Shown here one piece after another: positions 16,780 through 35,932 of a DNA stretch of 37,669 bases (position 1 is the stretch's first letter; every line of letters begins with the position of its first letter). The notes beneath the pieces are model-generated. The model worked only from the letters and a program-made list of their open reading frames with translations. It ran no database searches and had not been told where the DNA came from. The stretch comes from Phycisphaeraceae bacterium (GTDB taxonomy: Bacteria; Planctomycetota; Phycisphaerae; Phycisphaerales; Phycisphaeraceae), in assembly GCA_019634195.1 (NCBI GenBank), contig JAHQVV010000222.1, forward strand, positions 1-37,669, written 5' to 3'. Made by a program: the position numbers and the translations under genes.

Positions 16780-16874
16780 GTAGGACAGGGGCATTCCTGC
16801 CTGTCGATAGGCCGTAGGCCTAATCCCGACTCAATTCGGCTGCGCCGACTGACAGGCAGGAATGCCTGTCCTAC
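16780..16874. repeat. Inverted-repeat structural element, copy A
   Basis: GTAGGACAGGGGCATTCCTGCCTGTC ... GACAGGCAGGAATGCCTGTCCTAC outer arms are complementary apart from a 2-nt GG bulge; internal hairpins TAGGCC-GTA-GGCCTA and TCGGC-TGC-GCCGA. Same family as 35840-35932. Confidence 0.9.
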
Positions 16875-16878
16875 TTTG

Positions 16879-17544
16879 TCAATCGATAAACCCGGCCTCG
16901 CGTAACAACTTTGTCGTGACCGGCTGTTTCGCTTCGGTCTTGCTTCGCATGCGTTGCATCTGATGCACGGTCGTTTTTGCCAGGATGTCGGCTTCGATAT
17001 TGACGCGCTCGCCGACCTTGCGTTGACCGAGGGTGGTCATCTCAAGTGTCGCGGGGATCAGGGCGACGTCAAAAGTGTCTCCGTTGACGCGTGCAAGCGT
17101 GAGTGAGACCCCATCGATCGCGACCGATCCGCGCGGGATGATGTAGGCCATCAGGCCATCGGCGTCATCTGCTGGTTTCAGTGTGACCCGCCATTCACCG
17201 CCATCCGTGTGGATCGCATCGATCACCGCCAAGCCATCGACATGCCCCTGCATGAAGTGCCCGCCCATCGGTTGGCTCGGGGTGACGGCGGGCTCGAGGT
17301 TGACGAGGTCTCCCACACCAAGCGAGCCGATCGACGTCTTCATCAGTGTCTCGTGGATCACATCGAAGCCGAGCTGCTCATCGGTTATCTCGACGGCAGT
17401 GAGGCAGACGCCTGAGACGCAGATCGAGTCGCCGTGGTTGATTTGGCCTTGGAGCTTGCCGCGCTGGACCGTCAGGCGTTTGCCCGTTTCGGCTGGTGTG
17501 GCGGCGAGGATCTTGGCGGTGGTTTGGACGATGCCGGTGAACAT
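16879..17544 (-). CDS. ribE: Riboflavin synthase, alpha chain
   Basis: MFTGIVQTTAKI..., DSICVSGVCLTAVEI, MGGHFMQGHVDG, SVAIDGVSLTLARVNGDTFDVALIPATLEMTTLGQRKVGERVNIEADILAK: duplicated lumazine-binding motifs. Confidence 0.95.
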   Translation of the reverse strand: MFTGIVQTTAKILAATPAETGKRLTVQRGKLQGQINHGDSICVSGVCLTAVEITDEQLGFDVIHETLMKTSIGSLGVGDLVNLEPAVTPSQPMGGHFMQGHVDGLAVIDAIHTDGGEWRVTLKPADDADGLMAYIIPRGSVAIDGVSLTLARVNGDTFDVALIPATLEMTTLGQRKVGERVNIEADILAKTTVHQMQRMRSKTEAKQPVTTKLLREAGFID

Positions 17545-17604
17545 GGTGAGCTTTATGGGGTTTGAGGTTCCTTGAGAATGGTATCATGCCCCGCTCGGCC
17601 CAGA

Positions 17605-17629
17605 CCCCAAACCCCGGACCCCAGACCCC
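17605..17629 (-). other. Canonical G-quadruplex motif (four G4 tracts, 3-nt loops) on the minus strand
   Basis: Reverse complement reads GGGG-TCT-GGGG-TCC-GGGG-TTT-GGGG. Confidence 0.85.
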
Positions 17630-17633
17630 AAAG

Positions 17634-19421
17634 ATGCAACGCACCCACCACTGCAACGAACTTCGCAAAGACCACCTCGGCCAGACCGTCACCCTCGCGG
17701 GCTGGGTCAACAACTACCGCGACCTGGGCGGGGTCCGCTTCATCGACCTCCGCGACCGCGAGGGCATCACGCAGATCGTCTTCCACCCCGAATCCAAGGA
17801 CGCCCACGCCCTGGCTCAGAAGCTGCGGCGCGAGGATGTGATCGCGATCACGGGCAAGTGCATCGACCGTGAAGGCGGAGCCAACCCGAAATTGGAAACC
17901 GGCGAGATCGAAGTCGACGCGACCTTTGCGGAGGTGCTGGCCGATGCCGCGAACCCGCCGTTCATCCCCGACGAGGCGGAGAAGGTTGGCGAGGAGACCC
18001 GGCTGCGCTACCGCTACATCGACATGCGCCGCGCCCGCAGCCTGAACATCCTCAAGACCCGGCACCGCGTCGCGAAGCTGATGCGGGACTACTACGACGA
18101 GCAGGGTTTTTATGAGATCGAGACGCCCTTCCTCTGCCGTTCGACACCCGAGGGTGCGCGCGACTTCCTCGTGCCCTCGCGTTTGCAGGCCGGCGAGTTC
18201 TACGCCCTGCCGCAATCGCCGCAGATCTTTAAGCAGATCTGCATGGTTGGCGGTGTCGAGAAGTACTTCCAGATCGTCCGCTGCTTCCGCGATGAAGACC
18301 CGCGGGCTGATCGGCAGGCCGAGTTCACGCAGCTCGACATGGAGATGTCCTTCGTCGACCAGAACGACGTGATCACGACCAATGAGGGCATGATCCGCCA
18401 GCTTTGGAAAGAAGTCGCCGGGGTCGAGATCCCGAACCCGATCCCGCACATGACCTACGCCCACGCGATGGAGAAGTACGGCAGCGATCGGCCGGACCTG
18501 CGCTTCGGCATGCAGCTGCTCGACGTCACCGACGCCGTATCGAAGACGGACTTTAAGGTCTTCAGCGGGGCGATCGCGGCGGGCGGGGTTGTCAAGGCGA
18601 TCCGGGTGCCCGGCGGCGCGAAGATGTCGCGTAAAGAAACAGACGCGCTGGCCGAGTTCGCCAAGGAATTCGGTGCCGGTGGCCTGCCCACCACCAAGAT
18701 CGAGGGCGGCAAGCTCGCGACGGGCATCGCCAAGTTCATGGAGCCGATCACGGACGAACTGATCGCCGCGACCGATGCCGAGGACGGCGACCTGCTGTGC
18801 TTCGGCGTGGACGCCAAGCCTGCAACTGTTCACCGCGTGCTCGGGGAGCTCCGCGTCAAGCTCGGCCACGACCTGGGCCTGATCAAAGAAGGCGACTGGC
18901 AGTGGGTCTGGATCGTCGACTTCCCGATGGTCGAGTGGGACGACAAGACCAAACGCTGGAAGTCGCTGCACCACCCGTTCACCGCACCGAAGCCCGAGGA
19001 CATCGACAAGCTGGACAGCACCGACCACGGCACGATCGCGTCGATCAAGTCCAACGCCTACGACCTCGTACTCAACGGCAGCGAGCTCGGCGGCGGCTCG
19101 ATCCGTATCCACCGCTCGGACGTGCAGGGCAAGGTCTTCAAGCTGCTTGGCATCGATGATGAAGAAGCCAAGGCGAAGTTCGGCTTCCTGCTTGATGCGC
19201 TGAGCTACGGCGCCCCGCCGCACGGCGGCATCGCGTTCGGGCTGGACCGGATCGTCATGCACCTGTGCAACACGACGAATATCCGCGACGTGATCGCGTT
19301 CCCCAAGACGCAGAACGGCGCCGACCTGATGACCGAGGCGCCCTCGCCGGTAGACGAGGCGCAGAAGAAAGAGCTTCACCTGCGCACGGTCGTGCCGCAG
19401 AAGGCGCCGGCTGGCTCTTAA
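17634..19421 (+). CDS. aspS: Aspartyl-tRNA synthetase
   Basis: MQRTHHCNELRKDHLGQTVTLAGWVNNYRDLGGVRFIDLRDREGITQIVF, YRYIDMRRARSLNILKTRHRVAKLMRDYY, FRDEDPRADRQAEFTQLDMEMSFV, GGIAFGLDRIVMHL. Alternative in-frame start at 17586. Confidence 0.96.
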   Translation: MQRTHHCNELRKDHLGQTVTLAGWVNNYRDLGGVRFIDLRDREGITQIVFHPESKDAHALAQKLRREDVIAITGKCIDREGGANPKLETGEIEVDATFAEVLADAANPPFIPDEAEKVGEETRLRYRYIDMRRARSLNILKTRHRVAKLMRDYYDEQGFYEIETPFLCRSTPEGARDFLVPSRLQAGEFYALPQSPQIFKQICMVGGVEKYFQIVRCFRDEDPRADRQAEFTQLDMEMSFVDQNDVITTNEGMIRQLWKEVAGVEIPNPIPHMTYAHAMEKYGSDRPDLRFGMQLLDVTDAVSKTDFKVFSGAIAAGGVVKAIRVPGGAKMSRKETDALAEFAKEFGAGGLPTTKIEGGKLATGIAKFMEPITDELIAATDAEDGDLLCFGVDAKPATVHRVLGELRVKLGHDLGLIKEGDWQWVWIVDFPMVEWDDKTKRWKSLHHPFTAPKPEDIDKLDSTDHGTIASIKSNAYDLVLNGSELGGGSIRIHRSDVQGKVFKLLGIDDEEAKAKFGFLLDALSYGAPPHGGIAFGLDRIVMHLCNTTNIRDVIAFPKTQNGADLMTEAPSPVDEAQKKELHLRTVVPQKAPAGS

Positions 19422-19462
19422 GCAGTCAACTCCGAACCTGCTAGGGGCGATCGGCGTAATGC

Positions 19463-20872
19463 ATGGACCGACTTCTCCCGTTGCCGGAGCCGACTGTGCA
19501 GAATTGTGTGCGTCTCGTTGCCCTTGTCTTGGCCCTTGCCCTTGTTCGGGTGCCTTGCTTTGCGGGAGTGCTGACCGCCGAACATGCGGAGGCGGTTGCG
19601 GAATGGCTCAATACCGAGCGTGATCAGCGGGCTGATCCGGCCACGCTTGGCTTGCCGACGGGGCTGGACAAGGAGCAGTCCGCGCAACTCGCCCAGGCGT
19701 TGTGGGGCTTGCACAAAGAGCAGGCGCGCGATCCGGAGCTTGGTGACCTGCCGACCAGTCTGCAGGAAGCGGTCGCGAAGGCTGGGGGCGGCCGGGTTGC
19801 GTTGGAGGGCGGCCGGCTGACGCTGGGCAAAGAGTTGGTCATGCCTTTCGCGTTGGTCCGCAAGGAACAGAATGGACCCGCGGAAACAGGCCGGGCGTTG
19901 TTTATCTGCACGCACGGCGGGGGCGGCAACGGGAAGGTGGACGGCCCGCACGCCTGGCCGGTCAACACGCGGGAGTGGCGGACGCAGGTGCAACTCGCCG
20001 CTCGTTTGTATGAGCCCGAGGGGATCTACTTCGTGCCGCGGATGGTGGACGACCGCAAGGGCCGGTGGTTCCACGGTTTTAATCAAACCGCGTTTGAGCG
20101 GGTGATCGAGCACGCGATCGCGAACTGGGGCGTTGATCCGAACCGCGTCTACAAGCTTGGCATCTCGCAAGGCGGGTTCGGCACAAATAAGCTGGTGGCG
20201 TTTATGCCCGATCGCTTTGCCGGGGCGAACGCGATGGCCGGGGGAGTCAGTCCTGATGCGCACCCGCCGGGCAACTTGCGAAATGTCGCGTTCCGCAATG
20301 ATGTGGGTGAGGAGGACACGATGTTTGAGCGCGTTGGCAACGCGATCAAGTTTCACAAGCGGCTTGATCAATTCCATGCCGGAGACCCGGAGGGCTACAC
20401 GCACACGATCAGCGTGCAGAAAGGCCGTGGCCACGGCATCGATTACCGCCCTGGTGTCGCTTGGATTGCTCAGCACACGCGTAACCCTTGGCCCGACAGG
20501 CTGCACTGGGACAACCGGGAGCTGGGCGGCGAGCGTCGCGCACGGCATTACTGGGTCGAGCTCTGGGGCGAGCCGGTCGACAAACGGACGATGATGACCG
20601 TCTTTGCAGACCGCGAAACAAACACGATCACGATCGAGGCCATGTCGGGCAAGGTCGGTCAGGGCAATCCGCTATCGGGGGGCCAGCTTTGTGTGCTGCT
20701 TCACGATGAGCTGCTGGACCTCGACAAGCCGGTGAGGGTCTCGGTCAACGGCCGGGTCATGCACGACGGTGTGGTGAAACGCGACGCCTCTGTGCAGCTG
20801 CGCACACTTGCCGGTTATGGCGACCCGGCCATGACCGCGAGCGCCGAGCTTGTGTTCGCGTTGGATGAATAA
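19463..20872 (+). CDS. Secreted alpha/beta-hydrolase (esterase/PHB depolymerase-like)
   Basis: N-terminal hydrophobic signal, CTHGGGGNG oxyanion-like segment, GISQGGFGTNKL nucleophile elbow, late GRGHGIDY histidine. Confidence 0.75.
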   Translation: MDRLLPLPEPTVQNCVRLVALVLALALVRVPCFAGVLTAEHAEAVAEWLNTERDQRADPATLGLPTGLDKEQSAQLAQALWGLHKEQARDPELGDLPTSLQEAVAKAGGGRVALEGGRLTLGKELVMPFALVRKEQNGPAETGRALFICTHGGGGNGKVDGPHAWPVNTREWRTQVQLAARLYEPEGIYFVPRMVDDRKGRWFHGFNQTAFERVIEHAIANWGVDPNRVYKLGISQGGFGTNKLVAFMPDRFAGANAMAGGVSPDAHPPGNLRNVAFRNDVGEEDTMFERVGNAIKFHKRLDQFHAGDPEGYTHTISVQKGRGHGIDYRPGVAWIAQHTRNPWPDRLHWDNRELGGERRARHYWVELWGEPVDKRTMMTVFADRETNTITIEAMSGKVGQGNPLSGGQLCVLLHDELLDLDKPVRVSVNGRVMHDGVVKRDASVQLRTLAGYGDPAMTASAELVFALDE

Positions 20873-20924
20873 ACCACCCAAGACCTCTGCGACCGCTATC
20901 ATGTTCGCACAAAGGAGTGTGCAC

Positions 20925-21863
20925 ATGCTTTACACGCAACGGATTGTCTGGACGCTCGTGATGGCCTGCTTCGTGGTGCTGCCCGCGCTGGGCAAGCCCG
21001 TCACGGTCATGAGCTACAACGTCGAGAACATGTTCGATGTTTTTGATGACCCCTACAGCGACGACGACGGCGTGGCCGTAAAACGCCGAGGCGAGATCGT
21101 GGCGATCGCCAAGGCCATCGCGGCGGCCGACGCGGACGTGGTGGTGTTCCAGGAGTTGGAGAACGAGCACCTGTTGCAGGGCATGGTCGACACGTTCCTG
21201 AAGGATCAAGGGTACGAGTACGTCGCTTGCCAGCGGACGAACTCGGGCCGCGGGATCAACCTGGGCGTGATCTCGAAGCTGCCGATCAAGCGGCTGACGA
21301 GCCACCGGTTCAAGACGCTGACGCACCCGGATGCCCCGGGCCGGGCGTGGAAGTTCGCCCGGGACGCGATGCAGGTTACGCTCGATGTGGATGGGAAAGA
21401 ACTGCATCTTTTCAATGTTCACCTCAAGAGCAACAGCTCCCGCAATGGGGACCCGAACTCCAAGTTCTGGCGGACCGCCGAGGCGATGGCGCTCAAGGGC
21501 CTGATCCGCGAGATGTTCAAGAAGGACCCGGACGCGCTCGTCGTTGCACTAGGCGACTTCAACTCCAACATCGAGACGCGGCCTGAGCAGGTCCGCCCCT
21601 GGCCTGCGACGGAATACATACGCAAGCCCGAGGCCGACGGCACCCAGCTGCTCAACGACGCGCACGATGAGATCGACGACTACGACAAGCGCGTCACGAT
21701 CCCCGGCTCAGGCCGATACCCCGCGGCGATCTTTGATTACATCTACGCGAGCCCCAAGCTCCATACGATGTTCGTCAAGGGCAGTGCGAAGGTGATCAAC
21801 GATCCCAAGCTGGTCAAGGGCAGTGACCACTACCCGGTCTACGCGACGTACGATATTAAATGA
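20925..21863 (+). CDS. Secreted endonuclease/exonuclease/phosphatase family protein
   Basis: AAAGGAG upstream of ATG 20925; signal peptide; MSYNVENMFDVFDD, VVFQELENEHLL, LFNVHLKSN, VVALGDFNSN, GSDHYPVYATYDIK: EEP motifs. Confidence 0.9.
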   Translation: MLYTQRIVWTLVMACFVVLPALGKPVTVMSYNVENMFDVFDDPYSDDDGVAVKRRGEIVAIAKAIAAADADVVVFQELENEHLLQGMVDTFLKDQGYEYVACQRTNSGRGINLGVISKLPIKRLTSHRFKTLTHPDAPGRAWKFARDAMQVTLDVDGKELHLFNVHLKSNSSRNGDPNSKFWRTAEAMALKGLIREMFKKDPDALVVALGDFNSNIETRPEQVRPWPATEYIRKPEADGTQLLNDAHDEIDDYDKRVTIPGSGRYPAAIFDYIYASPKLHTMFVKGSAKVINDPKLVKGSDHYPVYATYDIK

Positions 21864-21869
21864 TTTGCC

Positions 21870-22538
21870 CTATCCCACGAGCCCATCGGGCCTGCCCGCC
21901 GGTTGGTTGAGGTAGGGGTTTGTGGCGCGTTCCTGGCCGATGCTGGTCTCCGGGCCGTGGCCGGGCAGGACGCGGGTGTCGTCGGGCAGCGTCATCAACT
22001 GCTCGCTGATGGACTGCATGAGGCGTGGGCCGTCCGAGGTGGGGAAGTCGAAGCGCCCGATGGAGCCTGCAAACAACGTGTCGCCGACGATGGCGAGGTG
22101 GTTGTCCGGTTGGTACAGGGTGATGCCGCCGGGGCTGTGGCCGGGGGTGTGGCGGATTTCGAAAGGGACGCCGTTGAGCGTGAGCTGCTCGCCGTGGTGC
22201 ATCAGGCCGGTGGCTTCGGGCGCGACGACGGGGTCGATGATCGCGGCGCTGAGGTTCAGCCGGGTGTCGGTGAGGAAGTCTTCTTCATCCGCGTGTACGA
22301 GGACCGGCACGTCCGGGTAGCGGTGGCGCACGGTGTGCAGCCCTGCGATGTGGTCCAGGTGGGCGTGGGTGAGGACGACCTGCTCGATATGGAGCCCCCG
22401 CCCATCGATCGCGTCCAGCATCGGCTCGGGGTCGAAGCCCGCGTCAACAATCCAGCACGACTTGCCGACGGACAGGACGAAGCAGTTGGTCTGCCACTGG
22501 CCTAGCGTGAAGGTCTGGATGGAAAGGGGATCGGGCAT
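21870..22538 (-). CDS. MBL-fold metallo-hydrolase (glyoxalase II-like)
   Basis: VLTHAHLDHIAGLHTVRHRYP (HxHxDH), RHTPGHSPGGITLY, VGDTLFAGSIGRFDFP, VLPGHGPETSIGQE. Confidence 0.92.
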   Translation of the reverse strand: MPDPLSIQTFTLGQWQTNCFVLSVGKSCWIVDAGFDPEPMLDAIDGRGLHIEQVVLTHAHLDHIAGLHTVRHRYPDVPVLVHADEEDFLTDTRLNLSAAIIDPVVAPEATGLMHHGEQLTLNGVPFEIRHTPGHSPGGITLYQPDNHLAIVGDTLFAGSIGRFDFPTSDGPRLMQSISEQLMTLPDDTRVLPGHGPETSIGQERATNPYLNQPAGRPDGLVG

Positions 22539-22638
22539 CTCTGCACAGTTTAACGACTAGCCGCAAACGCAAGATGGGGGTTTAGATTGTCTGTTACTCG
22601 GACCCTATCCTGCGTTTTCGGGCTATTGAGCCCACCCA

Positions 22639-23829
22639 TCACGAGATGAAGGTCTTGCTCTTTTTGCCCGAGAGGTAGCTCTCGACCACGGTCGAGCTCA
22701 AATCATCGCTGGCGCAATAGAACGCTGTCCCGCGGGTCAGGCGGGTGAGCCGCTCGATGAAATCGACCCAGTCCATGCCCCAGTAGTCCTCGATCAGGGC
22801 GAAACTGGCGAAACGGATGCCTGCCTTCGCGCACATCGCTGCTTCTTTGAGTGTCTCGGTCGCGGTGCGTTCGTCCGGCGGGTAGAGTAGGTAGAGCATC
22901 TCCTCGCCGGTCTCGGGCGAGGCCTCGACGTGGGCCGTGGGCTGGCCATCGGTGATGATGAAGACTTGTTTGTTCGCCGCGCCGCTGCGGCGGAGGATCC
23001 GCCTTGCCTCGCGCAGGCCCAGGTGCAGGTTCGTGAAGTGCAGCGGCAGCTGGGCCGGGTCCGCTTGGTCCAGCGGGACGCGGATGCGCACCTGGTAGTC
23101 GCGGATGCTCACCGGCTTGGGCATGATCAGCGGGACATCCTTCTCGTGCACACGCTCGGCCAATGAATAAAACGAAACGAAGTCGAGCGTGTCCTGTGGG
23201 AAGCGTTGCCGGATCAACTCGCTTAAGCCGAGGCAGACCCGCTTGGCCTGGAGGAATCGGCCGTAGCGGTACATCGAGCCGGACAGGTCGATGAGTACCA
23301 CGGTCGCGCAGTCGGTCCGCCCTTCCGTTTCGTGCACCACGAAGTCGTTCATGCCCAGCTTCAGCGGGAGGCTGCTCTGGCCTGCGGCGATCGCCTCGGT
23401 GTTGTTCGCCAGCGCGTTGCGGAGCGTCGCGTTGAGGTCGATGTCAGACAGTGGGTCGCCGAACGTATAAGGCCGACTGCCCTCGGTGCGTTCGCTGGTC
23501 TTGCCGGATTGATCGGTGCTGTGGCCGTCGCGGTTGCCGCGTTTGAGGCTCTCGAAGATCTGCAAGAGCGCCTGGTGCTGCATGCCGTTGACCATGCGGG
23601 CGGTGAGCTTGAGCTGTTTGTTGCCGTGCTCGTCGGTGACTTCCTCGAGCAGCCCCGCGTCGATCATCTGCTGGATGAGGTCCTGCTCGTCGGGGTTCTC
23701 CAGGTTCTGTAGCGCGTCCATCGCCTGCTCGCCGTACTGCAGGATGAACTCGACCAACTGCGGCGAGGGGAAGAGCTCGTCCGGGCCGAGGAAAGGCTTG
23801 CCGTCATAGGGGCCGTAGGTGTGCTTCAC
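22639..23829 (-). CDS. von Willebrand factor A domain protein
   Basis: CATVVLIDLSGSMYRYGRFLQAKRV (MIDAS DxSxS), FIITDGQPTAHVEAS. Likely GTG start at 23829 (VKHTYGPYDGKPFLGPDELF). Confidence 0.88.
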   Translation of the reverse strand: MKHTYGPYDGKPFLGPDELFPSPQLVEFILQYGEQAMDALQNLENPDEQDLIQQMIDAGLLEEVTDEHGNKQLKLTARMVNGMQHQALLQIFESLKRGNRDGHSTDQSGKTSERTEGSRPYTFGDPLSDIDLNATLRNALANNTEAIAAGQSSLPLKLGMNDFVVHETEGRTDCATVVLIDLSGSMYRYGRFLQAKRVCLGLSELIRQRFPQDTLDFVSFYSLAERVHEKDVPLIMPKPVSIRDYQVRIRVPLDQADPAQLPLHFTNLHLGLREARRILRRSGAANKQVFIITDGQPTAHVEASPETGEEMLYLLYPPDERTATETLKEAAMCAKAGIRFASFALIEDYWGMDWVDFIERLTRLTRGTAFYCASDDLSSTVVESYLSGKKSKTFIS

Positions 23830-23920
23830 GACTCTATGGTAGGCCCGATTCCTGCAGATATACTTGGCTGGTCGCTTTTGCGATGCTAATCTAGTATTTT
23901 CGGGCCCCAAAGGCGTGATT

Positions 23921-26629
23921 ATGGTCGAGCCACAGTTTTACCAGCTCAACAGCCGGATGATCCCGCTGCGCGATATCCTCCCCGGCGCCGCTAATCTGTA
24001 TCAACGCTGCCTTCTCCTAGTGCTGTGGCCGCTCTGGAAATTTTTCCGGGTCAACACGCCGATCACGACCGAGGCGATCAATGCCCCGGAACTCGGGCCC
24101 TTCCGTGTGCCGGCATCTGATTTTGCGCCTGCCCGGCAAGAAGGGCTGGCCGAGTTGGATGAGGCGGCCCGCCGATTGGGCTATGAGCCGGTCGCCTGGT
24201 ACCAGGCGCACGACCGCCAGACAGCGACCGAGTTTTATGTCGTGCTCTACCGATCCGCCGACGCGAGGGCGATCGCTTTGGCCAAGCAGCGTGTGTGGAA
24301 GTACATCCACCCACCAAGGGTCGATACCGAGTTGGCACTAGTCTCGCGTGACCCCTCGGGCGGCCTGGTTCGGAGCGGGACGACGGGGCCAGACCTGTCG
24401 CGCGTCCTCGGCGTGACGACGCATGTCATGCGGGGAGCAACGTTTGAAGATCTCGACACCGCGCATCGTTCTAAAGCGTCTGCCACCGGCTACGACCGGC
24501 TCGACCACGATGATCGAGCCTTGGAATTGCATGAAGCGTTGCACGCGATGGACCGCGATGCCAATCTTGCGCAGGGGATCTACACCGAGCCAGATCCCGG
24601 GCTAGTGATTGTAGAAGATCTATCGGCCGCCTCATATACAACGGGGGGCGCCTACGGCACGGTTGCCCTGCCCGCCGCCTTCGAGGCTTCCGACAATGCT
24701 CCGATCCTCAGGGCACTGGTCCACCTCGAACAAAAGAAGTGGTCGTTGTCGTCGTTGCTGATCCTGCTCGCTGTTTCTGTCGGACTATTCGTCGCTGGGG
24801 GTTGGGCGGTCTGGGACCTGAGCCTGGTCCTGATGCTGGTCGGGATCCTGTTCGTGCATGAGTTGGGCCACCTATTGGCCATGAAGCTGTTCGGGTACCA
24901 GAACGTCAAGATGTTCTTCATCCCGCTGATGGGTGCCGCGGTGAGCGGGCGTGCCGTCGATGTCGCGGGTTGGCGTAAGCTCGTTGTGTACCTCGCGGGC
25001 CCGCTGCCGGGCATTGCGCTTGGCCTCGCCGCACTCGCCGGGGCGGTCCTCAATGAGCAGGACTGGCTGTACCAGATCGCCCTCTTAACGATTGTGCTTA
25101 ACGCCTTAAACCTGCTGCCGATCCTCCCGCTGGATGGTGGCCGGGTGATCGACACGACTCTGACGTCGCGTCACCCCATGGCCGACCTGATCTTCCGGGT
25201 TCTCACCGTTTTCGTACTCCTCGTTTTGTTCTTGATCCTGCAGGACAAGATCCTGCTGTTCCTGGGGATTTTCATGGCCATCGGGATCGCTCCTTCGTAT
25301 AAGATCGCGAAGGTGGCGATCGGGCTGCGCCAGGGCCCGCGGTTGCCCGACCCCGAAGCGGACCAGTGCGTGCCTCTGGCAGCGGCGGACTTGATCGCGA
25401 CGCGCGTTAAAGAGGTTCTCCCGAAGAGCCTTAGCGCGAAGGCCGCCGCGCAGTACGTGCAGATGATTTATGAGCGTGTGATGTCAAAGCCGCCGGGCCT
25501 GCTGGCGACAACGCTCGCCCTGCTGGTTCAGTTCGGCGCATTCTTTGGAAGCGTCGCGGGGATCATCCTGATCCTTGCGGTTGGGCCGTATGGCTATTGG
25601 GGGCAGGACTATATCGAGGAGCCGCTGGCGCACGCATATGACCCGCAAGACCGAGGTGACTGGCCCGCCGATACCGCCGCAGTCCACCGTGATTCCTTGA
25701 TCACGTTGGTGGTGGCCTGCGCGGATGCGGACCAATCAGAGCGTATCGCAGGTCGTCTCGCTCAACAGGCCGCGGGCGAAGCCGGGCTATTGCGTCTTGG
25801 GCCGGTGCTCTTGATCGATCTCGACGGGGCGAGCCCGCTGCGCGCATCATGGATTGATCAGCTCGAGTCCGAGGCCGAGATGGTCCTGGTGCAGACTTCA
25901 GATGTGACGGTTCGCTTCAATGTCTCGGCGGTCGCTGGTGACGAGCCGCAGGCCGAGGCACTTGCCCAATCGTTCAGTACGCTATTGCCCCTTGGGCAGA
26001 ATCACACGATGGTCCCGCCTTGGCACCCCGACCCGTCGCGGTTCGAACCCTTTGAAGACGCACGGCGGACGTACGCGTTGGTGGCCGGTTTTACACTGGA
26101 TGACCCGGTTTACGATGAAGAGCGGGCGGAGCGTGAGCAGCGATTGAGCGCCAAGCATCAAGCGGCGATTAAACGCGGCGATCCCGAGCTGATCCGCAGC
26201 ACCGAAGAAGACCTCAATCAGTATAGGGCCGAGCGATACGGCGACGAGATCGATCTCGCCGCCGCGCAGTTCGGTGACTCACTGGACCCCGCGGTTGTCC
26301 AGGCCCTGCGGGATCGGCCGCAGTACGTGTGGAACGAGCAGGCAACGGACGCTAACTACGAGGCGTTTGGGAAGCAATTGGACCAGTGGCATATCGGGCT
26401 GGGGCGGCTGCTCGGAGCCAGCAGCGTGGACGACCCTTATCGCGGGGCGTCACTGCTCGGCGGCTATTTTTATTCCGGGGGTGAACAAGTCTGGATGCGA
26501 GACCTGGTGTTGGATCACCCGACGCTCGGCTTGCCGATGATGCTGGATTGGCTGATCAAGCAAGGCTATGGGGAGGTTCGGTTTGAACCGATCGATCCGT
26601 TGCAGGGCACCGACTTTTTGGGCGAGTGA
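23921..26629 (+). CDS. Large multi-domain site-2 protease family (M50) membrane protein
   Basis: Core LMLVGILFVHELGHLLAMKLFGYQNVKMFFIPLMGAAVSG (HELGH) and LNLLPILPLDGGRVID (LDG). About 280 residues precede and about 370 follow the TM core. Start likely ATG 23921. Confidence 0.88.
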   Translation: MVEPQFYQLNSRMIPLRDILPGAANLYQRCLLLVLWPLWKFFRVNTPITTEAINAPELGPFRVPASDFAPARQEGLAELDEAARRLGYEPVAWYQAHDRQTATEFYVVLYRSADARAIALAKQRVWKYIHPPRVDTELALVSRDPSGGLVRSGTTGPDLSRVLGVTTHVMRGATFEDLDTAHRSKASATGYDRLDHDDRALELHEALHAMDRDANLAQGIYTEPDPGLVIVEDLSAASYTTGGAYGTVALPAAFEASDNAPILRALVHLEQKKWSLSSLLILLAVSVGLFVAGGWAVWDLSLVLMLVGILFVHELGHLLAMKLFGYQNVKMFFIPLMGAAVSGRAVDVAGWRKLVVYLAGPLPGIALGLAALAGAVLNEQDWLYQIALLTIVLNALNLLPILPLDGGRVIDTTLTSRHPMADLIFRVLTVFVLLVLFLILQDKILLFLGIFMAIGIAPSYKIAKVAIGLRQGPRLPDPEADQCVPLAAADLIATRVKEVLPKSLSAKAAAQYVQMIYERVMSKPPGLLATTLALLVQFGAFFGSVAGIILILAVGPYGYWGQDYIEEPLAHAYDPQDRGDWPADTAAVHRDSLITLVVACADADQSERIAGRLAQQAAGEAGLLRLGPVLLIDLDGASPLRASWIDQLESEAEMVLVQTSDVTVRFNVSAVAGDEPQAEALAQSFSTLLPLGQNHTMVPPWHPDPSRFEPFEDARRTYALVAGFTLDDPVYDEERAEREQRLSAKHQAAIKRGDPELIRSTEEDLNQYRAERYGDEIDLAAAQFGDSLDPAVVQALRDRPQYVWNEQATDANYEAFGKQLDQWHIGLGRLLGASSVDDPYRGASLLGGYFYSGGEQVWMRDLVLDHPTLGLPMMLDWLIKQGYGEVRFEPIDPLQGTDFLGE

Positions 26630-27386: not shown

Positions 27387-27477
27387 ACGGCTTAAGATAT
27401 GTCAATTAGCGGCAGCCTGTTCCCGCGTGACGGTGCCAAGCTGAGATTGGTGTTATTACCGCCGAAATGAATAAACA

Positions 27478-27504
27478 CCCCACATGAAACGATTCCATGA
27501 GGGG
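27478..27504 (-). terminator. Rho-independent-like terminator downstream of the prepilin gene
   Basis: Minus strand CCCCTCATGGAATCGTTTCATGTGGGG followed by T-rich TGTTTATT. Confidence 0.55.
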
Positions 27505-27532
27505 CGCGAAGGAGGGTTGGGGATGTCTTGAG

Positions 27533-28339: not shown

Positions 28340-28390
28340 GGGTTACCCTTCTTTGTAATTGTGACTCAGCGAGTTTGATTGATGGAAAAA

Positions 28391-28416
28391 CCCGATGCCG
28401 TGCTGACGCCATCGGG
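28391..28416 (-). terminator. Rho-independent terminator downstream of the PEP-CTERM gene
   Basis: Minus strand CCCGATG-GCGTCAGCACGG-CATCGGG followed by TTTTT (complement of aaaaa at 28386-28390). Confidence 0.7.
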
Positions 28417-28432
28417 CCGAAAAAAGGAAGAG

Positions 28433-29131
28433 TCAACCGCGGCGGCGAGCGACCAGTAGGCCCGCGAGGCCGAGCAGTGCCAGGCTGCTTGGTTCGGGGA
28501 CTTGGTTGAAGCTGAGGTTGTCGACTGCGTAGCGGCCGTTAATCGGGTCGCCGACCGCGTCAAAGGCCAGCGTGTAGCTCTCGCCGGCTGCGCCCGTGAA
28601 GCCCGGAGTGACAGTCACAACGTCAGAGTTGGGGTTGGTTAGTGTGACCTGTTGGCTCCAAACAACGTTGTCCGAAGAATCGGTCAGGGTCAGGTCCCAA
28701 ACGCCGCTGTCCGAAGTCTCTTCGGTATTGCCGAAATCAAATGAGTTGAGGACTAGAGCAAACCCCGGGTCAGCCGAGAACCCGATCGTGTGGTTGTCGG
28801 TGTCGAGCTGCGCAATACGAGGGATACCGCCTTCGTTGTCCCAGTCCCCGCCTCCCGCTGTCTGGTCTTCAATCTCACTAAAAAAGCCGGATGTATGGAC
28901 GTCCCATGCGTCGTCCCACGTCAGCGTGATATTCGGCGTTGCGCCGTTGGAAATAGTTAGGCCGTTGGCGTCGGCGCTAGCGTTTGAGCCGAAGCCAGAT
29001 GCGATAGCGGTGTTGCTCCCGCCGATTTGACCGAAACCGAGGGTGGTGGCATGCCCGGCAGGTGCTAAACACGACACGGCAGCGAAAGCGGCGATGGAAA
29101 GGGTGAACTGTTTGTTGATGAGTTTTTTCAT
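28433..29131 (-). CDS. PEP-CTERM sorting domain protein
   Basis: MKKLINKQFTLSIAAFAAVSCLAPAGHATTLGFGQ signal peptide; C-terminal [22 protein letters not shown]. Confidence 0.9.
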   Translation of the reverse strand: MKKLINKQFTLSIAAFAAVSCLAPAGHATTLGFGQIGGSNTAIASGFGSNASADANGLTISNGATPNITLTWDDAWDVHTSGFFSEIEDQTAGGGDWDNEGGIPRIAQLDTDNHTIGFSADPGFALVLNSFDFGNTEETSDSGVWDLTLTDSSDNVVWSQQVTLTNPNSDVVTVTPGFTGAAGESYTLAFDAVGDPINGRYAVDNLSFNQVPEPSSLALLGLAGLLVARRRG

Positions 29132-29410
29132 AATCGTTAATCTCCAAATGAGGTTTGGTTCAAGCCGGTGTCGACGCGTGTCGAACCGTACCGGCGCGTA
29201 TCAAAAGCAAAATGGTTTTTCTTACAAAGGGCTGTGGCCTAAGATCATCTCGCCCTGTGAAGGGGATTGACCCTGCTTCTCCTTTCCTGTTTTTTAGACG
29301 TATTCATATCGGTGGCCTAGTGGCATTGACCGGTCCCAGCATCACACGTGTTCGTTAGTCAATACAGATCAAAACGATATGTAAATCATTAAGTAATCAA
29401 TTGCTAATGA

Positions 29411-29608
29411 TTAGGTGGGGCTGGTGCATACCAGGCCCATCTCGTACGCCATTTGTCGGGGTGAACTGGGGCCAGACGCTACACAGCCACCAAGGAATTG
29501 AGTCGTTAGTACGACGGCGATGAAGCATTCGTATCCTCCTAATAGAATTAGTCTTCCTAAACCTGTGCCAATCGTCTGTTCATGATGATGCTTACGGTTT
29601 GCCCGCAT
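29411..29608 (-). CDS. Possible small lipoprotein (65 aa) overlapping the 3' end of the FecR gene
   Basis: Basic N-terminus then LILLGGYECFIAVVLTTQFLGGC, a hydrophobic stretch ending in a lipobox-like LGGC; start overlaps the FecR stop by 17 bp. Confidence 0.35.
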   Translation of the reverse strand: MRANRKHHHEQTIGTGLGRLILLGGYECFIAVVLTTQFLGGCVASGPSSPRQMAYEMGLVCTSPT

Positions 29609-31400
29609 CGTGGAGCAGTTGGATGTCGTCTTCGCTAAGTTCCCGGCGTGCGATGAGCAGCTCGCTCATCTCGCCATACAGAGGCCTTAAGCCGCTTTGG
29701 ATCGGCGGCTTAAGATCGGGAGATGATGTCCCGACTAGCAGTGGTGTGTTGTTTTCTAGAGACGGGAGCGTCTGATCCGCTTGATGAACCAATCGTCCGT
29801 TGACGAAATAGCGCAGGCGTGAACTGTCGCTTGTTACCGCGAGGTGGGTCCATGTAGAGCTGTTTGCATTGATCTCGGGCGTTTGCTGAAATCCTTGCAC
29901 AGCATTGTCGTCCGTGCCGGCGCCAAACTGGAAGCGGGTTTTGTCTGGGCTGGAGCCTCTCACTGCAGAAAATTGGTAGTTCAGGCGCATTGGCGGGATT
30001 TCACGCTTGCTTACCAGAGTGTTCCATGTTTGATGTGCCGGGTCGAGTTTGACCCACATCGCAATCGTCATCGGCCCCGTGATGTCTAGTGCGTCGCTGT
30101 CTGGCACGACAACCCCTCGGCAGCGGCCCCGGTCATCCACCCCAAACCGCAGTGCACGGGTCTCTTGGAAACGGCCGGAAACCCATTGGGGAGTGGCGAT
30201 CTTATGGCCATCGCCCAGCCGTCCATCCCCAGCCTGCAAGACGCCGTTGGACCGATTGATGAGCTTAAACTGATCGGCGTCCATGCGATCAAATAAATAG
30301 TAAACCACGACTTCAGGGTCGCGCCGCATCATGTAGGTCATTGTCAACCAGCGGTGGTAAGCCGAGCCCTTGTCTGCGTGTACTCGCGCATTAAATTCCC
30401 GGGCGAGTACATAATGCAGTTCATTCGCGGGCATGCGACGCACATGCAGGGCCTTGTCGATCACCGCCGCGCCGCCCTCTGTAAACCGCATTGGTGCAGC
30501 GGTATCGCCGTGCTTATCTAAAGCTAGTTCTACCTCGCCGTTGAAGACGTCCAGCCGGGTTTGGCCTTGGTCGTCCACTTCGACACCGAACTCGGTGCCT
30601 AGATCGGTGATCGTGGCCTGACTCGTCAGCACGTCAAAGCCCTTGCCCCGGGTATACACCGAGGCGCTCAGCCGGCCATAGTTCAGAAGGATTGCTTTCT
30701 CGGATTCAAGCTGGACCGAGACCGGCCCCTGGAGCAAGACTTTTGCGCCGTTTAGCATTTCTAGCTCTACGAGCCCATTGTCCAAGGACAAGGCTTGGCC
30801 TGACATGACCTGGGCCCCGGTTCCTGGTGCATCTTCGGTTCCCTCGGCCCAAACCGCGTTACGCACGCGCAGTATCCTTGCGACTGTTATGGGGTGTTCT
30901 GCCTCGGCCGATATCTCTAAGGCGGGACTAGATGGGGGGGGAGAAAAGATCTGCCACAAACTGAAGCAAATCGCTAGCATTGCCGCGATCCCGCCGTACA
31001 CCACCCAGTGGGGGATCACAACGACGATGGGTTTTTTTGTCGTGCTGTTATCAGCATTTTGTTGGTTAAGCTCTTTACCCTGTCGCGGGTCCGCTTCGGG
31101 AGGAGTTTGGTCCAAAACGATGATTCGCGTATTGGCCTCTTGTTCGGCACGCTGTAGCTCTAGCAAGGCTTTGGACGATTCGCGAAGGTCTGTGCGGTTG
31201 TCGAGCCCGTAAAGGGGCGCAGCCATCACTTCTGCCGACAATTGTTCCTGGTAGCAGATCGACACGAAGCGATCTAAGAGGACGGGGTCTCGTTTCAGGT
31301 CCTCTGCTAGTTCTTGGGCCTCTGTGTCAGTGGGGCTTGCGTCAAGGTATCTCAGCACCCTCACTGTGAACTCATTGTCGTATTCAAGATGATCAGGCAT
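29592..31400 (-). CDS. FecR-type anti-sigma regulator with C-terminal LamG domain (second copy)
   Basis: TM (PHWVVYGGIAAMLAICFSLWQIF), FecR-like region (GQALSLDNGLVELEMLNGAKVLLQGPVSVQLES...ITDLGTEFGVEVDDQGQTRLDVFNGEVEL), LamG region (VVYYLFDRMDADQFKLINRSNGVL...LYGEMSELLIARRELSEDDIQLL). Confidence 0.88.
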   Translation of the reverse strand: MPDHLEYDNEFTVRVLRYLDASPTDTEAQELAEDLKRDPVLLDRFVSICYQEQLSAEVMAAPLYGLDNRTDLRESSKALLELQRAEQEANTRIIVLDQTPPEADPRQGKELNQQNADNSTTKKPIVVVIPHWVVYGGIAAMLAICFSLWQIFSPPPSSPALEISAEAEHPITVARILRVRNAVWAEGTEDAPGTGAQVMSGQALSLDNGLVELEMLNGAKVLLQGPVSVQLESEKAILLNYGRLSASVYTRGKGFDVLTSQATITDLGTEFGVEVDDQGQTRLDVFNGEVELALDKHGDTAAPMRFTEGGAAVIDKALHVRRMPANELHYVLAREFNARVHADKGSAYHRWLTMTYMMRRDPEVVVYYLFDRMDADQFKLINRSNGVLQAGDGRLGDGHKIATPQWVSGRFQETRALRFGVDDRGRCRGVVVPDSDALDITGPMTIAMWVKLDPAHQTWNTLVSKREIPPMRLNYQFSAVRGSSPDKTRFQFGAGTDDNAVQGFQQTPEINANSSTWTHLAVTSDSSRLRYFVNGRLVHQADQTLPSLENNTPLLVGTSSPDLKPPIQSGLRPLYGEMSELLIARRELSEDDIQLLHDAGKP

Positions 31401-31932
31401 TGGTGCGCCTGCCTCTAGGCGATATGCCCAGTCGATCTTGGATGCACTTTCTTAGCGTGGCATGGACGCGGGAGAGCATCACATACGTCGATGTTGTCGG
31501 CCGGTTTAGTTGCTTTGCCAGTTGCTCCCCGGTCATCCCCTCGCTGTACCGGAGATGCACCAAACGCTTAGCGTTGGCTGTGAGTTGGCCGATACAGCGC
31601 TCTAGCGCCTCTCCCTCCTCGGACAGGTGTTTCTCGTCGTAGGCGGACCAAGCATCGTCGAGTTTGGTGGCAAGTTCTTCGTCGAGCGGGAGGCCGCGGC
31701 GGTTATTCTTTTTAGATGCATTGATCGACCGATGCCGGGCAGACAGGCGCAGCCACGCCATCAGGTGCGATTGGTCATTGATTTCGTCTGCCTTGCGGAC
31801 CGCGAGTATCGAAATCTCTTGGAATACATCCTCGGCGATGTGGTAGTCCGGCACAATGCTACGGATGTAAGCCATCAGCTTCACCCGTTCTTCTATCAGC
31901 ACTTGGACGAGTTCATCGGGCGAGATCGCCAT
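31393..31932 (-). CDS. ECF RNA polymerase sigma factor (second copy, 179 aa)
   Basis: LMAYIRSIVPDYHIAEDVFQEISILAVRK..., HLMAWLRLSARHRSINASKK, LVHLRYSEGMTGEQLAKQLNRPTTSTYVMLSRVHATLRKCI; stop overlaps the FecR start (ATGCCTGA). Confidence 0.9.
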   Translation of the reverse strand: MAISPDELVQVLIEERVKLMAYIRSIVPDYHIAEDVFQEISILAVRKADEINDQSHLMAWLRLSARHRSINASKKNNRRGLPLDEELATKLDDAWSAYDEKHLSEEGEALERCIGQLTANAKRLVHLRYSEGMTGEQLAKQLNRPTTSTYVMLSRVHATLRKCIQDRLGISPRGRRTNA

Positions 31933-32146
31933 TGTTATATGCCTCCATTAGTAAACACAATCAAGCCTGGAAAAACCTAACATCGATTTGTGAGATTTTA
32001 GTTTTTTGCGATACTTAGGCGGCATGTGCGCAATGCATAATCTCTTTATCACAAACTGCTTAGTTATCACATCCACGGCATTCTCTGCCCCAGCGGGGCA
32101 TGGTCATGTGTAGTAGCTGGTCGGATAGGACGGCTGGGGCCGAGTG

Positions 32147-32165
32147 CGGGGCGTGATTCGCCCCG
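32147..32165. terminator. GC-rich hairpin downstream of rodA
   Basis: CGGGGCG-TGATT-CGCCCCG, 22 bp past the rodA stop; no T tract seen. Confidence 0.4.
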
Positions 32166-32187
32166 TGCACAGGGGGGTGTCTCAGCC

Positions 32188-33402
32188 TTATTGGAAGATC
32201 GCGTCCGCGTTATCAAACTCGAAGCTCGGCCTCGCCAGCATCTGCGGGCGTCTGGCGGCGAAGTTGATGACCAGGCCGACCATGATGAAGGTAAAGAGCA
32301 TGGACGAGCCGCCGTAGGAGATCAGCGGGAGCGTGATACCGGTGATGGGCAGGAGGCCGACGGTCATGCCGATGTTGATCGAGGCCTGGGTGAAGATCAT
32401 GCCCGCGAAGCCGACGCAGGACATGCGCGCAAAGGGGTCCTTGGAGCGCGCAGCGACGAGCAGGATCGACGTGACCAGCACGCCGTAGAGCGCCATGGTG
32501 CCCAGCCCGCCGAGGATGCCCCAGCGGTTGACGATGACGGGGAAGATCATGTCGTTGTAGTCGAAGGGCAGGTCGTTGTAATCGATGATGGTCGCGGCGC
32601 GTTCCTTGCCGAAGCCGGTGGTGCCACCGGCCGCGACCATGCGTTTGGCGACCATCTGCTGGTAGCCCTCACGCTGGGTCATGCGGTCGTCGCCCATCAT
32701 GTCGAAATACATCGCTTTGATGCGGTCTTGCTGGTGGCCCTTGAGGACCTGAAACTGGTCGGGTGCGTAAATCGTGACCGCGCCAACGACCCCGACGATC
32801 GCAACCGACAGGCCTAGTATCGTGCCGAGGTGTCTGAGCTTGGCTCCTGCGGCGACGAGCATGACGAACAGCGTGGGCGCGAACAGCAGCGCCGAGCCGA
32901 GGTCTGGTTCTTTGAGGATCAGGATCACCGGCACGAACATGATCGCGAACGGGATGAGCAGCCCCAGCAGCGAGCGGTGGTTGCCCCGGAAGCGCAGGTA
33001 CCACGCCAGCGCGAGCACGAACCCGACCTTGGCCATCTCCGAGGGCTGGAAGGACATGAACCCGAGGTTGATCCAGGCGGTTGAGCCGTTGCGGACCGGG
33101 ACGATCGAGCGCGGCACGCCCGGGAGGATCACGAAGATCAGTAGCAAGATCGCTGCGACCATCACGGGGTAGGCCATGTGCCCGATCCATCGGGGGCTTG
33201 GGATCATCATCAGCACCATGGCCGTTAGCGCGACGGGCAGCCATCGCGAGGTCTGCACTTCCGCGTGGCCCGGCGAGACCGTCTCGATCGCACTGCTGCC
33301 CAGCCAGGTCAGCATCAGCGCGGCAACTAAGGCGTACCAGCCCGCGTGCGGTCGGAGCAGCACGCGGAGCTGTTGGCCGAGTTGTTTGACGATCGGGTTC
33401 AT
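32188..33402 (-). CDS. rodA: Rod shape-determining SEDS protein RodA
   Basis: SEDS polytopic protein: STAWINLGFMSFQPSEMAKVGFVLALAWYL, LKEPDLGSALLFAPTLFVML, INIGMTVGLLPITGITLPLISYGGSSMLFTFIMVGLVINF. Confidence 0.93.
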   Translation of the reverse strand: MNPIVKQLGQQLRVLLRPHAGWYALVAALMLTWLGSSAIETVSPGHAEVQTSRWLPVALTAMVLMMIPSPRWIGHMAYPVMVAAILLLIFVILPGVPRSIVPVRNGSTAWINLGFMSFQPSEMAKVGFVLALAWYLRFRGNHRSLLGLLIPFAIMFVPVILILKEPDLGSALLFAPTLFVMLVAAGAKLRHLGTILGLSVAIVGVVGAVTIYAPDQFQVLKGHQQDRIKAMYFDMMGDDRMTQREGYQQMVAKRMVAAGGTTGFGKERAATIIDYNDLPFDYNDMIFPVIVNRWGILGGLGTMALYGVLVTSILLVAARSKDPFARMSCVGFAGMIFTQASINIGMTVGLLPITGITLPLISYGGSSMLFTFIMVGLVINFAARRPQMLARPSFEFDNADAIFQ

Positions 33403-35714
33403 CGTGTCGGCGGCCAGTCCAGGTACTGATGGCGTTGCAAGGCGTGGATGATCTGGTTCACGATCGGCCCGGCGATCTGGCCGCCCGAGCCCGCGTACTC
33501 CACGACCGCCGCGACCGCGTGCGTCGGCTGCGGTGCCCCCTCGGGCTGAACGAGCGCGACGACCCAGGCGTGGTCGCGCAGCGAGCGTTCGATCTCGTCT
33601 TCCTGCGGCTCGCCGTCGCGGTTGTAGTCGATCCAGCGGTACTTGCCGGGGTCGGCGGTGCCGGACTTGGCCATGACGCGGACGCCGGTGATGTTGAAGA
33701 TCGGCTCGCCATTGACCGGGCTGCTGGGGTGGCTGAGGTGGTGGGTGGTGCCCTTTTTAGTCGTCGCGCTGAGGTGCATGCCTTCGAGCGCCTGGTTGCG
33801 GGCGACGGGCGAGATCGCCTCGGCGTTAGAGCGCGTCGGCCTGTTGGGGCGCTCGGGCGAGACGACCAGCCGCGGCTGGCGAGCGAGGTCTCGCGAGGCC
33901 AGGCGCATGTACGCCGTCGCGGCTTGCAGTGGCGTCCATGAAACGGGGCCCTGGCCGATCGCCATGAAGCAGACCTCGTTGTGCTCAAGGTTAGCGTTGC
34001 CGACCTTGCTCGCGATGAGCTCAGGCAGGCGCAGGTCTAGCGGTTGTCCTAGGCCGAAGCCGCGGTACCAGTCGGGCAGCCGGTCCCTGCCGAAGCGACT
34101 GATTAAACGCTCTGCCAGGAGCCCGAAGAACGGGTTGGACGAGACTTGGATCGCCTCGACCCCGTTAATCTCACCGCGCAGGAGCGCGTACTTCTTCCAG
34201 TACCAATCGCGATAGACCGTCGGCTTATCCTCCCAAAGAAAGCCCGGTGTGTCGATGGTTTCGCTGGGCCCGAGCACGCCCTCGGACAGTGCCGCGGCGA
34301 GGACCAGCGGCTTGAGTGTTGAGCCGGGCTGGTATGGCACCGCGACCGCGCGGTTGACCATCGGCTGATTCACCAGATCGTTCCACAGCAGCGCGCTGTC
34401 CTCATCGAGCAACGCACGCGGCGCATTGGGCATCGACACCGCCGCGAGGACATCCCCCGACGCGATATCGATCACCACAGCGGCGCCGTTGTACGGCTCG
34501 CCCATGCGATCCGGCGAGTCGTCCGTCTTCAGGTGCCAGGGCAGCACCGTCATCAAGCCGAACTCCGGCGACAGGATCGCCTGGACCTGTGCCTGAAGGC
34601 GGATGTCCACCGAGAGCACGACGTCCTTGCCGGCCCGCGGATCGATCTTGTGCGTGGTCTCGCCGGTGTCTTTGTTGAAGATCCGCAGCCCGCGCGAGCC
34701 GCGCAGCTCTGTTTCCATCGACTGCTCGATGCCTGACCGCCCCAGCCGGTCGCCGTGCGTGTAGCCGTGGGCGTCGTACTTGCCTGCCCGATCACGCAAG
34801 GGTTTACTGCCAACATCTTCCGCCCACGCGTCACGCATCAGCCCGATCAGGTGCAGCCCGACCCCGGACACCTCGAGCTCGACCGGTTCGTCTTTCGCGA
34901 TCGGGCTGGGCAGCGAAGAGCGATCGATCTCGACCGTCATCCGGTCCATCGGGTATCGGCGGATCGTCGTGCGGCGGAGCTGGACCATGGTCCAGGGCAA
35001 GGCCGATCGTGCCTGTTCATCGCCGCTCTGCTTGGCCCGATTACCCTCATCGAGAAAGTTCTCGATCAGTAGCCGCAGCTCGTCGGGCAGGTCCGTGATC
35101 AGGACGTGGTGCTGTGTCTCGGCCTCGATCGGCTTGGCGACCTCGGACAACGGCACGGGCTCGCCACGCTCCTCGGATTCCTGCTTCTGCCACTGATGCC
35201 AGAGGTGGTTCTGCATCTTGTGGATCCGCTCGACGGTGTTCTTCCGCCGCTCGTTGAGTTCCGCGAAGCCGACGCCGGAGAGCTCGCCGAGCGTGACGAA
35301 CATCGACTGGGCCTGCTGGTCGTACTCGAGCTGCAGGGCGGCGACCTTTGACTGGCGCTGGGCTTGGCTCATCTCGCCCCAGGCGAGCTTGTCCCGTGAG
35401 GCGTCGCGGTAGGCGTTTTTGTAGCCCCACTTGCCGGTGAGCAGGTCGAAGTGGACCGCCAGTTCCCAGCCCGGCTCGTCCTCAGCCAGCACCACCCCGT
35501 TGCGGTCCACGATCGCGCCCCGCTTGGTCTGGATGTCCTGCCAATCCCGGAGCTTTGCCTCGGCCGTCTCGCGGGCCTCCTCGTGCGTCGCCCCCGTCGC
35601 CAGCATCGTCATCTTCGTGCCCAGCACGGCCAACACCACAAGCATCACCGCGGTCAGCAGCAACAGCCGGCGGTGGAACATGCTCGGCAACAGGTCTCGA
35701 ACGGTGGATCGCAT
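33399..35714 (-). CDS. mrdA: Class B penicillin-binding protein (PBP2-type transpeptidase)
   Basis: N-terminal TM (MRSTVRDLLPSMFHRRLLLLTAVMLVVLAVLGTKMTML), YQPGSTLKPLVLAAAL (SxxK), KSGTADPGKYRW (KSGT); overlaps rodA by ATGA. Confidence 0.88.
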   Translation of the reverse strand: MRSTVRDLLPSMFHRRLLLLTAVMLVVLAVLGTKMTMLATGATHEEARETAEAKLRDWQDIQTKRGAIVDRNGVVLAEDEPGWELAVHFDLLTGKWGYKNAYRDASRDKLAWGEMSQAQRQSKVAALQLEYDQQAQSMFVTLGELSGVGFAELNERRKNTVERIHKMQNHLWHQWQKQESEERGEPVPLSEVAKPIEAETQHHVLITDLPDELRLLIENFLDEGNRAKQSGDEQARSALPWTMVQLRRTTIRRYPMDRMTVEIDRSSLPSPIAKDEPVELEVSGVGLHLIGLMRDAWAEDVGSKPLRDRAGKYDAHGYTHGDRLGRSGIEQSMETELRGSRGLRIFNKDTGETTHKIDPRAGKDVVLSVDIRLQAQVQAILSPEFGLMTVLPWHLKTDDSPDRMGEPYNGAAVVIDIASGDVLAAVSMPNAPRALLDEDSALLWNDLVNQPMVNRAVAVPYQPGSTLKPLVLAAALSEGVLGPSETIDTPGFLWEDKPTVYRDWYWKKYALLRGEINGVEAIQVSSNPFFGLLAERLISRFGRDRLPDWYRGFGLGQPLDLRLPELIASKVGNANLEHNEVCFMAIGQGPVSWTPLQAATAYMRLASRDLARQPRLVVSPERPNRPTRSNAEAISPVARNQALEGMHLSATTKKGTTHHLSHPSSPVNGEPIFNITGVRVMAKSGTADPGKYRWIDYNRDGEPQEDEIERSLRDHAWVVALVQPEGAPQPTHAVAAVVEYAGSGGQIAGPIVNQIIHALQRHQYLDWPPTR

Positions 35715-35743
35715 CGGCCCATCCTTAGGCGGATCGCAAGGTG

Positions 35744-35762
35744 GACAGGCATCGTGCCTGTC
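35744..35762. repeat. Single-hairpin element related to the inverted-repeat family
   Basis: GACAGGC-ATCGT-GCCTGTC perfect 7-bp stem, upstream of the PBP2 start and ~77 bp from copy B. Confidence 0.6.
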
Positions 35763-35839
35763 ATAGGGGATACAGCGGTTGCGCACGTACACAACCGCCC
35801 CGAACCCCTATCGACACTATCTTAGACCCCCGGCAAAAA

Positions 35840-35932
35840 GTAGGACAGGCATTCCTGCCTGTCGATTGGGCGCAGCCCAAAAAAACTCGTATTTGGCTTC
35901 GCCAAACTGACAGGCAAGAATGCCTGTCCTAC
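35840..35932. repeat. Inverted-repeat structural element, copy B
   Basis: GTAGGACAGGCATTCCTGCCTGTC ... GACAGGCAAGAATGCCTGTCCTAC (one mismatch); internal hairpins TTGGGC-GCA-GCCCAA and TTTGGC-TTC-GCCAAA. Confidence 0.92.

Follow-up and report, generated by a model that had tools for sequence, protein, structure and literature searches.

The window, a stretch of 37,669 nucleotides from the Phycisphaeraceae bacterium contig JAHQVV010000222.1 (assembly GCA_019634195.1), carries two copies, A and B, of a dispersed inverted repeat. These repeats very probably form one family of REPINs (REP doublets forming hairpins), non-autonomous elements made of two inverted repetitive extragenic palindromes (REPs) and belonging to the type mobilised by REP-associated tyrosine transposases (RAYTs). 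We base this identification on related genomes in which these repeats bracket RAYT genes, on an empty insertion site without target-site duplication and on the anatomy of the ends, in which a GTAG head precedes a hairpin. These three lines of evidence support one of the two analogies proposed in an initial annotation of the sequence, that with REPs or bacterial interspersed mosaic elements (BIMEs) and their RAYTs; the other, with miniature inverted-repeat transposable elements (MITEs) in the classical sense of elements moved by a DDE transposase, found no support, since target-site duplications are absent. The kind of element is known. Its unusual feature is the presence of two extra mini-hairpins per element, whose pairing tends to persist while their letters change.

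Arms, transposase genes and insertion sites

The 24-nt arm of the repeats was searched for in the genome of the window (G000, 3.62 Mb), in four further genomes of its genus (G001 to G004; all five are metagenome-assembled genomes, MAGs) and more widely. The initial annotation had described two copies, and the family extends far beyond them: G000 alone contains 77 matches with at most three mismatches, against none for a reversed control pattern, mostly arranged as inverted pairs that span about 92-95 bp. Arms are present in all five genomes of the genus but in only seven of 51 genomes of the family. A total of 85 full elements was gathered (37 from G000, 32 from G001 and 16 from the other genomes of the genus), and these inverted doublets are mainly extragenic, with eight of the 85 lying within an open reading frame (ORF) according to a crude ORF calling.

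Each REP end consists of a tetranucleotide head and, directly 3' of it, an 8-bp hairpin, GACAGGCA-TTCC-TGCCTGTC. The GT[AG]G tetranucleotide that characterises REPs is thus found at the place where it belongs, GTAG accounting for 58 of 74 heads in G000. In G001 the heads are mostly GGGG or GGAG, GGGG being the commonest, and the relatives show GGAG, GGGG or GTGG besides GTAG. An exact pair of 20-nt arms, devoid of mini-hairpins, was also observed in MAGs labelled Chloracidobacterium, Acidobacteria gp2, Pyrinomonadaceae and Zipacnadia (L087, L091, L092, L093, L098), and a degenerate arm pair in one labelled Myxococcota (L102), which may reflect bin contamination; because such contamination is possible, no transfer was inferred from the exact arms found in other phyla.

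A Y1 or RAYT transposase had been proposed as the gene to look for, and RAYT genes delimited by matching REPs do occur in three related genomes. The RAYT of G001 (REP_Tyr_transpos, NF047646; 100.9 bits for a cut-off of 80) sits between two complete GGGG-headed elements. That of G004 (88 bits, 58% identical) is located inside a split element with a REP and a mini-hairpin at each end, the REP stem being altered on both sides to GGCAGACA/TGTCTGCC, and the same genome also carries a miniature element with the RAYT unit's own arms. G032 belongs to another genus; here a RAYT relative, its frame broken, is placed directly between two arms identical to those of the window, and the mini-hairpin TTGCC-GAA-GGCAA is found at its upstream end. 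When compared with NCBIfam, the RAYTs score above the cut-off as REP-associated and below it as IS200. In their placement in G001, G004 and G032, the arms thus act like the termini of RAYT units, with the elements of the window as gene-less forms of such units. A third RAYT gene, in G004 (L076:1319-1844), lies between inverted GTGG-CACAGGCATCCTGCCTGTG REPs that have a C-rich extension and no mini-hairpin; this unit is apparently inserted within a long open frame.

Two negative results weigh against the identification. No close RAYT was found in G000, where the best score was 22 bits in an assembly that is 89.6% complete, and none was found in G002 and G003, which nevertheless carry the arms. 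The cognate RAYT of G000 may have been lost or may be unassembled. Two Y1 genes of G000, on contigs C50 and C198, were considered for this role and rejected, as the arms are not nearby and the similarity is merely distant.

The locus of copy A is an empty site in G002, where the alignment is gapless once 95 bp are removed, so that the insertion added exactly 95 bp without a target duplication. Moreover, no target-site duplication of any length was detected over the 85 elements, matches being at the expected level for 2-9 nt. Immediately outside the head, a purine is found in 86% of the cases and T in only 5%, alike on both sides of the 85 elements. Classical MITEs, on whose terminal inverted repeats a DDE transposase would act, share with this family the terminal inverted repeats, the length of about 95 bp and the high copy number. 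This origin is nonetheless extremely unlikely and was rejected for want of target duplications, both in the 85 elements and at the empty site; in addition, each arm forms a hairpin of its own behind a GNNG head, and RAYT genes are bounded by such arms.

According to the same ORF calling, most elements start no more than about 50 nt downstream of a stop codon, and at about 10 element edges the neighbouring frame ends 4 nt inside the element, where the TAG of GTAG may supply the stop codon. Such a location would suit RNA structures kept by the host in 3' untranslated regions, acting as terminators or mRNA stabilisers and having their fold selected as RNA, and REPs elsewhere are known to affect termination and mRNA stability (PMC6006769, PMC8049555). 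We consider this explanation improbable, however, because few loci are common to the sister species (three of the 37 elements of G000, when compared with the 32 fetched from G001), the orientation relative to the upstream gene has no clear bias (23:15) and the loop polarity described below tracks the REP head and not the gene. A structured RNA of the Rfam collection was also rejected, with no match at the gathering threshold in the window.

From these sequences we infer that the REPINs are mobilised by a RAYT. The enzyme (TnpA-REP, a Y1/HuH transposase) would act in trans and recognise the GNNG head and the REP hairpin on single-stranded DNA (ssDNA), a mode of recognition shown for the enzymes of E. 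coli, Stenotrophomonas and Marinomonas (PMC8266576). It would then move the folded single-stranded element and insert it without target duplication, mostly just after stop codons.

Mini-hairpins and their covariation

About 2 nt inward of each REP there is a mini-hairpin whose stem has 5-6 bp and whose loop has 3 nt; its offset is almost constant (7 or 8 nt). Two types can be distinguished, AGGCC-GNA-GGCCT (A) and TCGGC-GNA-GCCGA (B), and of the 68 elements in which both halves were resolved, 62 combine one A with one B, which gives the element a polarity. On the strand that bears the head, the loop reads GNA in 134 of 170 halves and TNC in none of the 170; any base can stand in its middle (A 75, C 42, T 21 and G 12 among 150 well-paired halves). 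Unusually stable DNA mini-hairpins, d(GCGNAGC), have this C-GNA-G loop (PMC4686876). We suggest that the mini-hairpin is part of the folded transposon end and presumably folds as ssDNA in the cell. It may cause the single strand to fold as separate hairpins instead of one long arm-to-arm stem, as a nucleus of folding, or the enzyme may contact it by its shape.

The initial annotation had read paired substitutions from the comparison of copy A with copy B. This comparison was dropped as evidence of covariation because the element is polar and copy B is atypical, both its hairpins resembling type B. The stems were therefore compared with the consensus over the whole family, the halves being chosen by sequence and not by pairing, since a choice based on pairing inflates the compensated share. 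Stem cells changed on both sides number 55, about five times the approximately 11 expected if the two sides were independent, and 47 of the 55 are Watson-Crick pairs; as the copies are kin, these counts are not to be taken as probabilities. There are also 70 broken cells, which represent decay in many mini-hairpins and count against preservation of the fold, along with 20 wobble cells. The covariation proposed at first thus holds for the family as a whole, side by side with non-compensatory changes in the inner stems, which had been named as contrary to it and tell against it in part. Pairing is favoured, yet many copies are decaying. In the REP stems, by contrast, the letters are conserved, with 12 two-sided changes for 1.9 expected in 1360 cells. 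This difference suggests recognition by sequence for the REP hairpin and by shape for the mini-hairpin.

A broader proposal would make the GNA mini-hairpin a second, shape-read module, such that the RAYT reads the REP hairpin letter by letter but senses no more of the mini-hairpin than its shape and loop, and would regard ultra-stable DNA mini-hairpins as a general feature of HuH substrates in planctomycetes. The stem would then be free to vary by paired changes, as only shape and loop are read, and the second, unrelated REPIN family of G000 described below, which has GC-GNNA-GC beside its own Y1 gene, would speak for the generality of the feature. We put this forward tentatively and think it rather doubtful.

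The covariation could instead be mainly mutational. Template switching during replication on short hairpins rewrites one arm from the other and can invert interiors without any selection on structure. It is known to make arms uniform and to turn spacers around (PMC8604942), and also to give rise to hairpins and keep them paired by compensatory, templated changes (PMC8794818). This explanation competes with selection on the fold and not with the REPIN identity, and we find it quite plausible, although we stop short of calling it probable. The ortholog of copy B, at the same locus in G001 (L105:2064-2156), is a case in point. The two have in common two unusual stems that are unique among the elements, but the interior of the G001 copy is inverted relative to its flanks (score 34 inverted and 13 direct, with a maximum of 33 among several hundred random pairs), and both heads have changed jointly (GTAG/GTAG vs GGAG/GGAG). 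This inverted ortholog is the reason for taking template switching at hairpins seriously as an alternative to selection; excision followed by reinsertion in the opposite orientation is a further possibility. The heads at the two ends agree above chance in G001 (21 of 32, for 13.4 expected), whereas in G000 they agree only at the chance level. Against template switching as the sole cause stand a loop polarity that never flips around a free middle base, and long arms that are not homogenised, showing nine mirrored deviations against 143 confined to one arm.

The initial annotation had left a choice between selection on the structure and a copying mechanism that preserves it. The covariation is real but incomplete and does not separate selection on the fold from templated copying, and both may contribute to it. 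The family is for this reason a compact natural test of ssDNA-fold selection against replication template switching as the source of covariation, in which the fixed loop polarity and free middle base favour selection on folded ssDNA and the inverted ortholog favours template switching.

The copies in the window and a second repeat family

In a scan of the window for nearby inverted repeats, copies A and B gave the two strongest signals, and the chance expectation for the 20-nt arm core in the window is 0. Their positions and nearly identical 24-nt arms were as first described, with two corrections: the left arm of copy A has 26 nt owing to two extra G (GTAGGACAGGGGCATTCC...), and the right arm of copy B carries one mismatch. 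The inner hairpins are exactly those claimed (on the forward strand, TAGGCC-gta-GGCCTA and TCGGC-tgc-GCCGA in A, TTGGGC-gca-GCCCAA and TTTGGC-ttc-GCCAAA in B).

Features of the two REPIN copies in the window
Feature	Position	Strand	Basis or remark
Copy A, complete REPIN, 95 bp	16780..16874	.	Arm search and genome-wide matches; empty site in G002
Copy A, left REP, GTAG head and hairpin	16780..16805	+	2-nt insertion GG
Copy A, A-type mini-hairpin TAGGCC-GTA-GGCCTA	16808..16822	+	GNA loop on left-head strand
Copy A, B-type mini-hairpin TCGGC-GCA-GCCGA	16836..16848	-	GNA loop on right-head strand
Copy A, right REP	16851..16874	-	Perfect GTAGGACAGGCATTCCTGCCTGTC
Copy B, complete REPIN, 93 bp	35840..35932	.	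Inverted ortholog in G001
Copy B, left REP	35840..35863	+	Perfect
Copy B, mini-hairpin TTGGGC-GCA-GCCCAA	35866..35880	+	
Copy B, mini-hairpin TTTGGC-GAA-GCCAAA	35892..35906	-	
Copy B, right REP	35909..35932	-	One mismatch (TTCT loop)

In DNA folding both copies lie 8.5-9.6 standard deviations below shuffled sequence. The centroid of copy A is the three-way form, with the arms paired and two inner hairpins; in the model of copy B the inner stems pair with each other and lengthen the long stem. Copy A is placed between two convergent genes, 15470-16771 (+), encoding a SpoIIE-domain protein, and 16879-17544 (-), encoding a lumazine-binding protein. Copy B is found just downstream of the 3' end of a - strand reading frame, whose end resembles ATP synthase epsilon, and precedes the penicillin-binding protein gene 33399-35792 (-). 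A lone REP-like hairpin, GTGG-ACAGGCATCGTGCCTGT(C), was also observed at 35741-35762; it is absent from the orthologous place in G001, and GTGG-headed elements that resemble it, without mini-hairpins, occur in L006, L019 and L020.

A second inverted repeat, GAGCACGAAGCGTNAGCGAGTG, was identified within the interiors of several elements of the first family. It is dispersed, with 55 arms in G000, and two nearly identical copies (L041:3805-3872 and 4412-4479, on contig C50) flank the Y1 gene 3824-4399. Its core, GC-GTNA-GC, represents the GNNA counterpart of the GNA mini-hairpin motif in DNA. Both the CNGA foot of the repeat and the Y...EQ motif of the transposase match class 3 of PMC6006769. The repeat is nested again and again in the spacer of the first family (L007:219-284, L009:1549-1620, L062:1551-1617, L017:1728-1797 and L129:1193-1259), as if this spacer were a favoured landing site for it.

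Comparison with known systems

The family of the window shares with IS200/IS605 elements (IS608, ISDra2) a Y1/HuH transposase, subterminal hairpins, a 5' guide tetranucleotide and the lack of a target duplication. It differs from them in having symmetric inverted REPs as ends and RAYTs that NCBIfam scores as REP-associated. The class 3 TnpA-Y1 REPtrons (Quentin 2018, PMC6006769) correspond to the second repeat family of G000 and not to that of the window, which differs from them in head, stem and transposase class.

Planctomycetes are among the bacteria from which GTAG REPs have been reported, and RAYT genes with double palindromes or GGGGWSAS repeats on either side have been described (PMC3733652). 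As in the TIRYT or TIRtrons (Di Nocera 2013, PMC3733652), a RAYT-like gene lies here between inverted repeats, and the ends in G001 contain GGGGACAG, which fits GGGGWSAS; this holds for the GGGG-headed ends of G001 and not for the GTAG-headed copies of the window. Unlike TIRYT, the repeats described here are hairpins with a GTAG-type head and a high copy number. Moreover the RAYTs have 153-172 aa, and by length alone they are too short for the C-terminal helix-turn-helix typical of TIRYT, REP_Tyr_transpos covering residues 26-155 of 164 and 37-166 of 172.

A close likeness is to the REPIN or BIME-type doublets of Pseudomonas and enterobacteria (Bertels and Rainey 2011, PMC3116915; Nunvar 2010, PMC2817692), which also have inverted REPs of about 24 nt with a GTAG head, a variable spacer, intergenic dispersal and linkage to RAYTs. 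REPINs are RAYT-mobilised inverted REP doublets in which compensatory changes of the spacer were already noted (PMC3116915). The elements described here differ by a second hairpin in each half, with a strand-polar GNA triloop and the A/B pairing rule, by their occurrence in Phycisphaerae and by the absence of the cognate RAYT from the G000 assembly. No description of a strand-polar GNA mini-hairpin in each half or of the A/B rule was found, which is weak evidence as the literature was searched mostly without subscription journals. With this family, REPINs gain an architecture of two hairpins per end, in a phylum for which they have been little described.

The mini-hairpins themselves resemble d(GCGNAGC) (cited in PMC4686876) in the C-GNA-G core with its free middle base, which forms the loop of most halves. 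That motif is known mainly from oligonucleotides, whereas here it is a conserved part of a natural mobile element, and a well-known ultra-stable DNA mini-hairpin is in this way tied to a natural transposition system.

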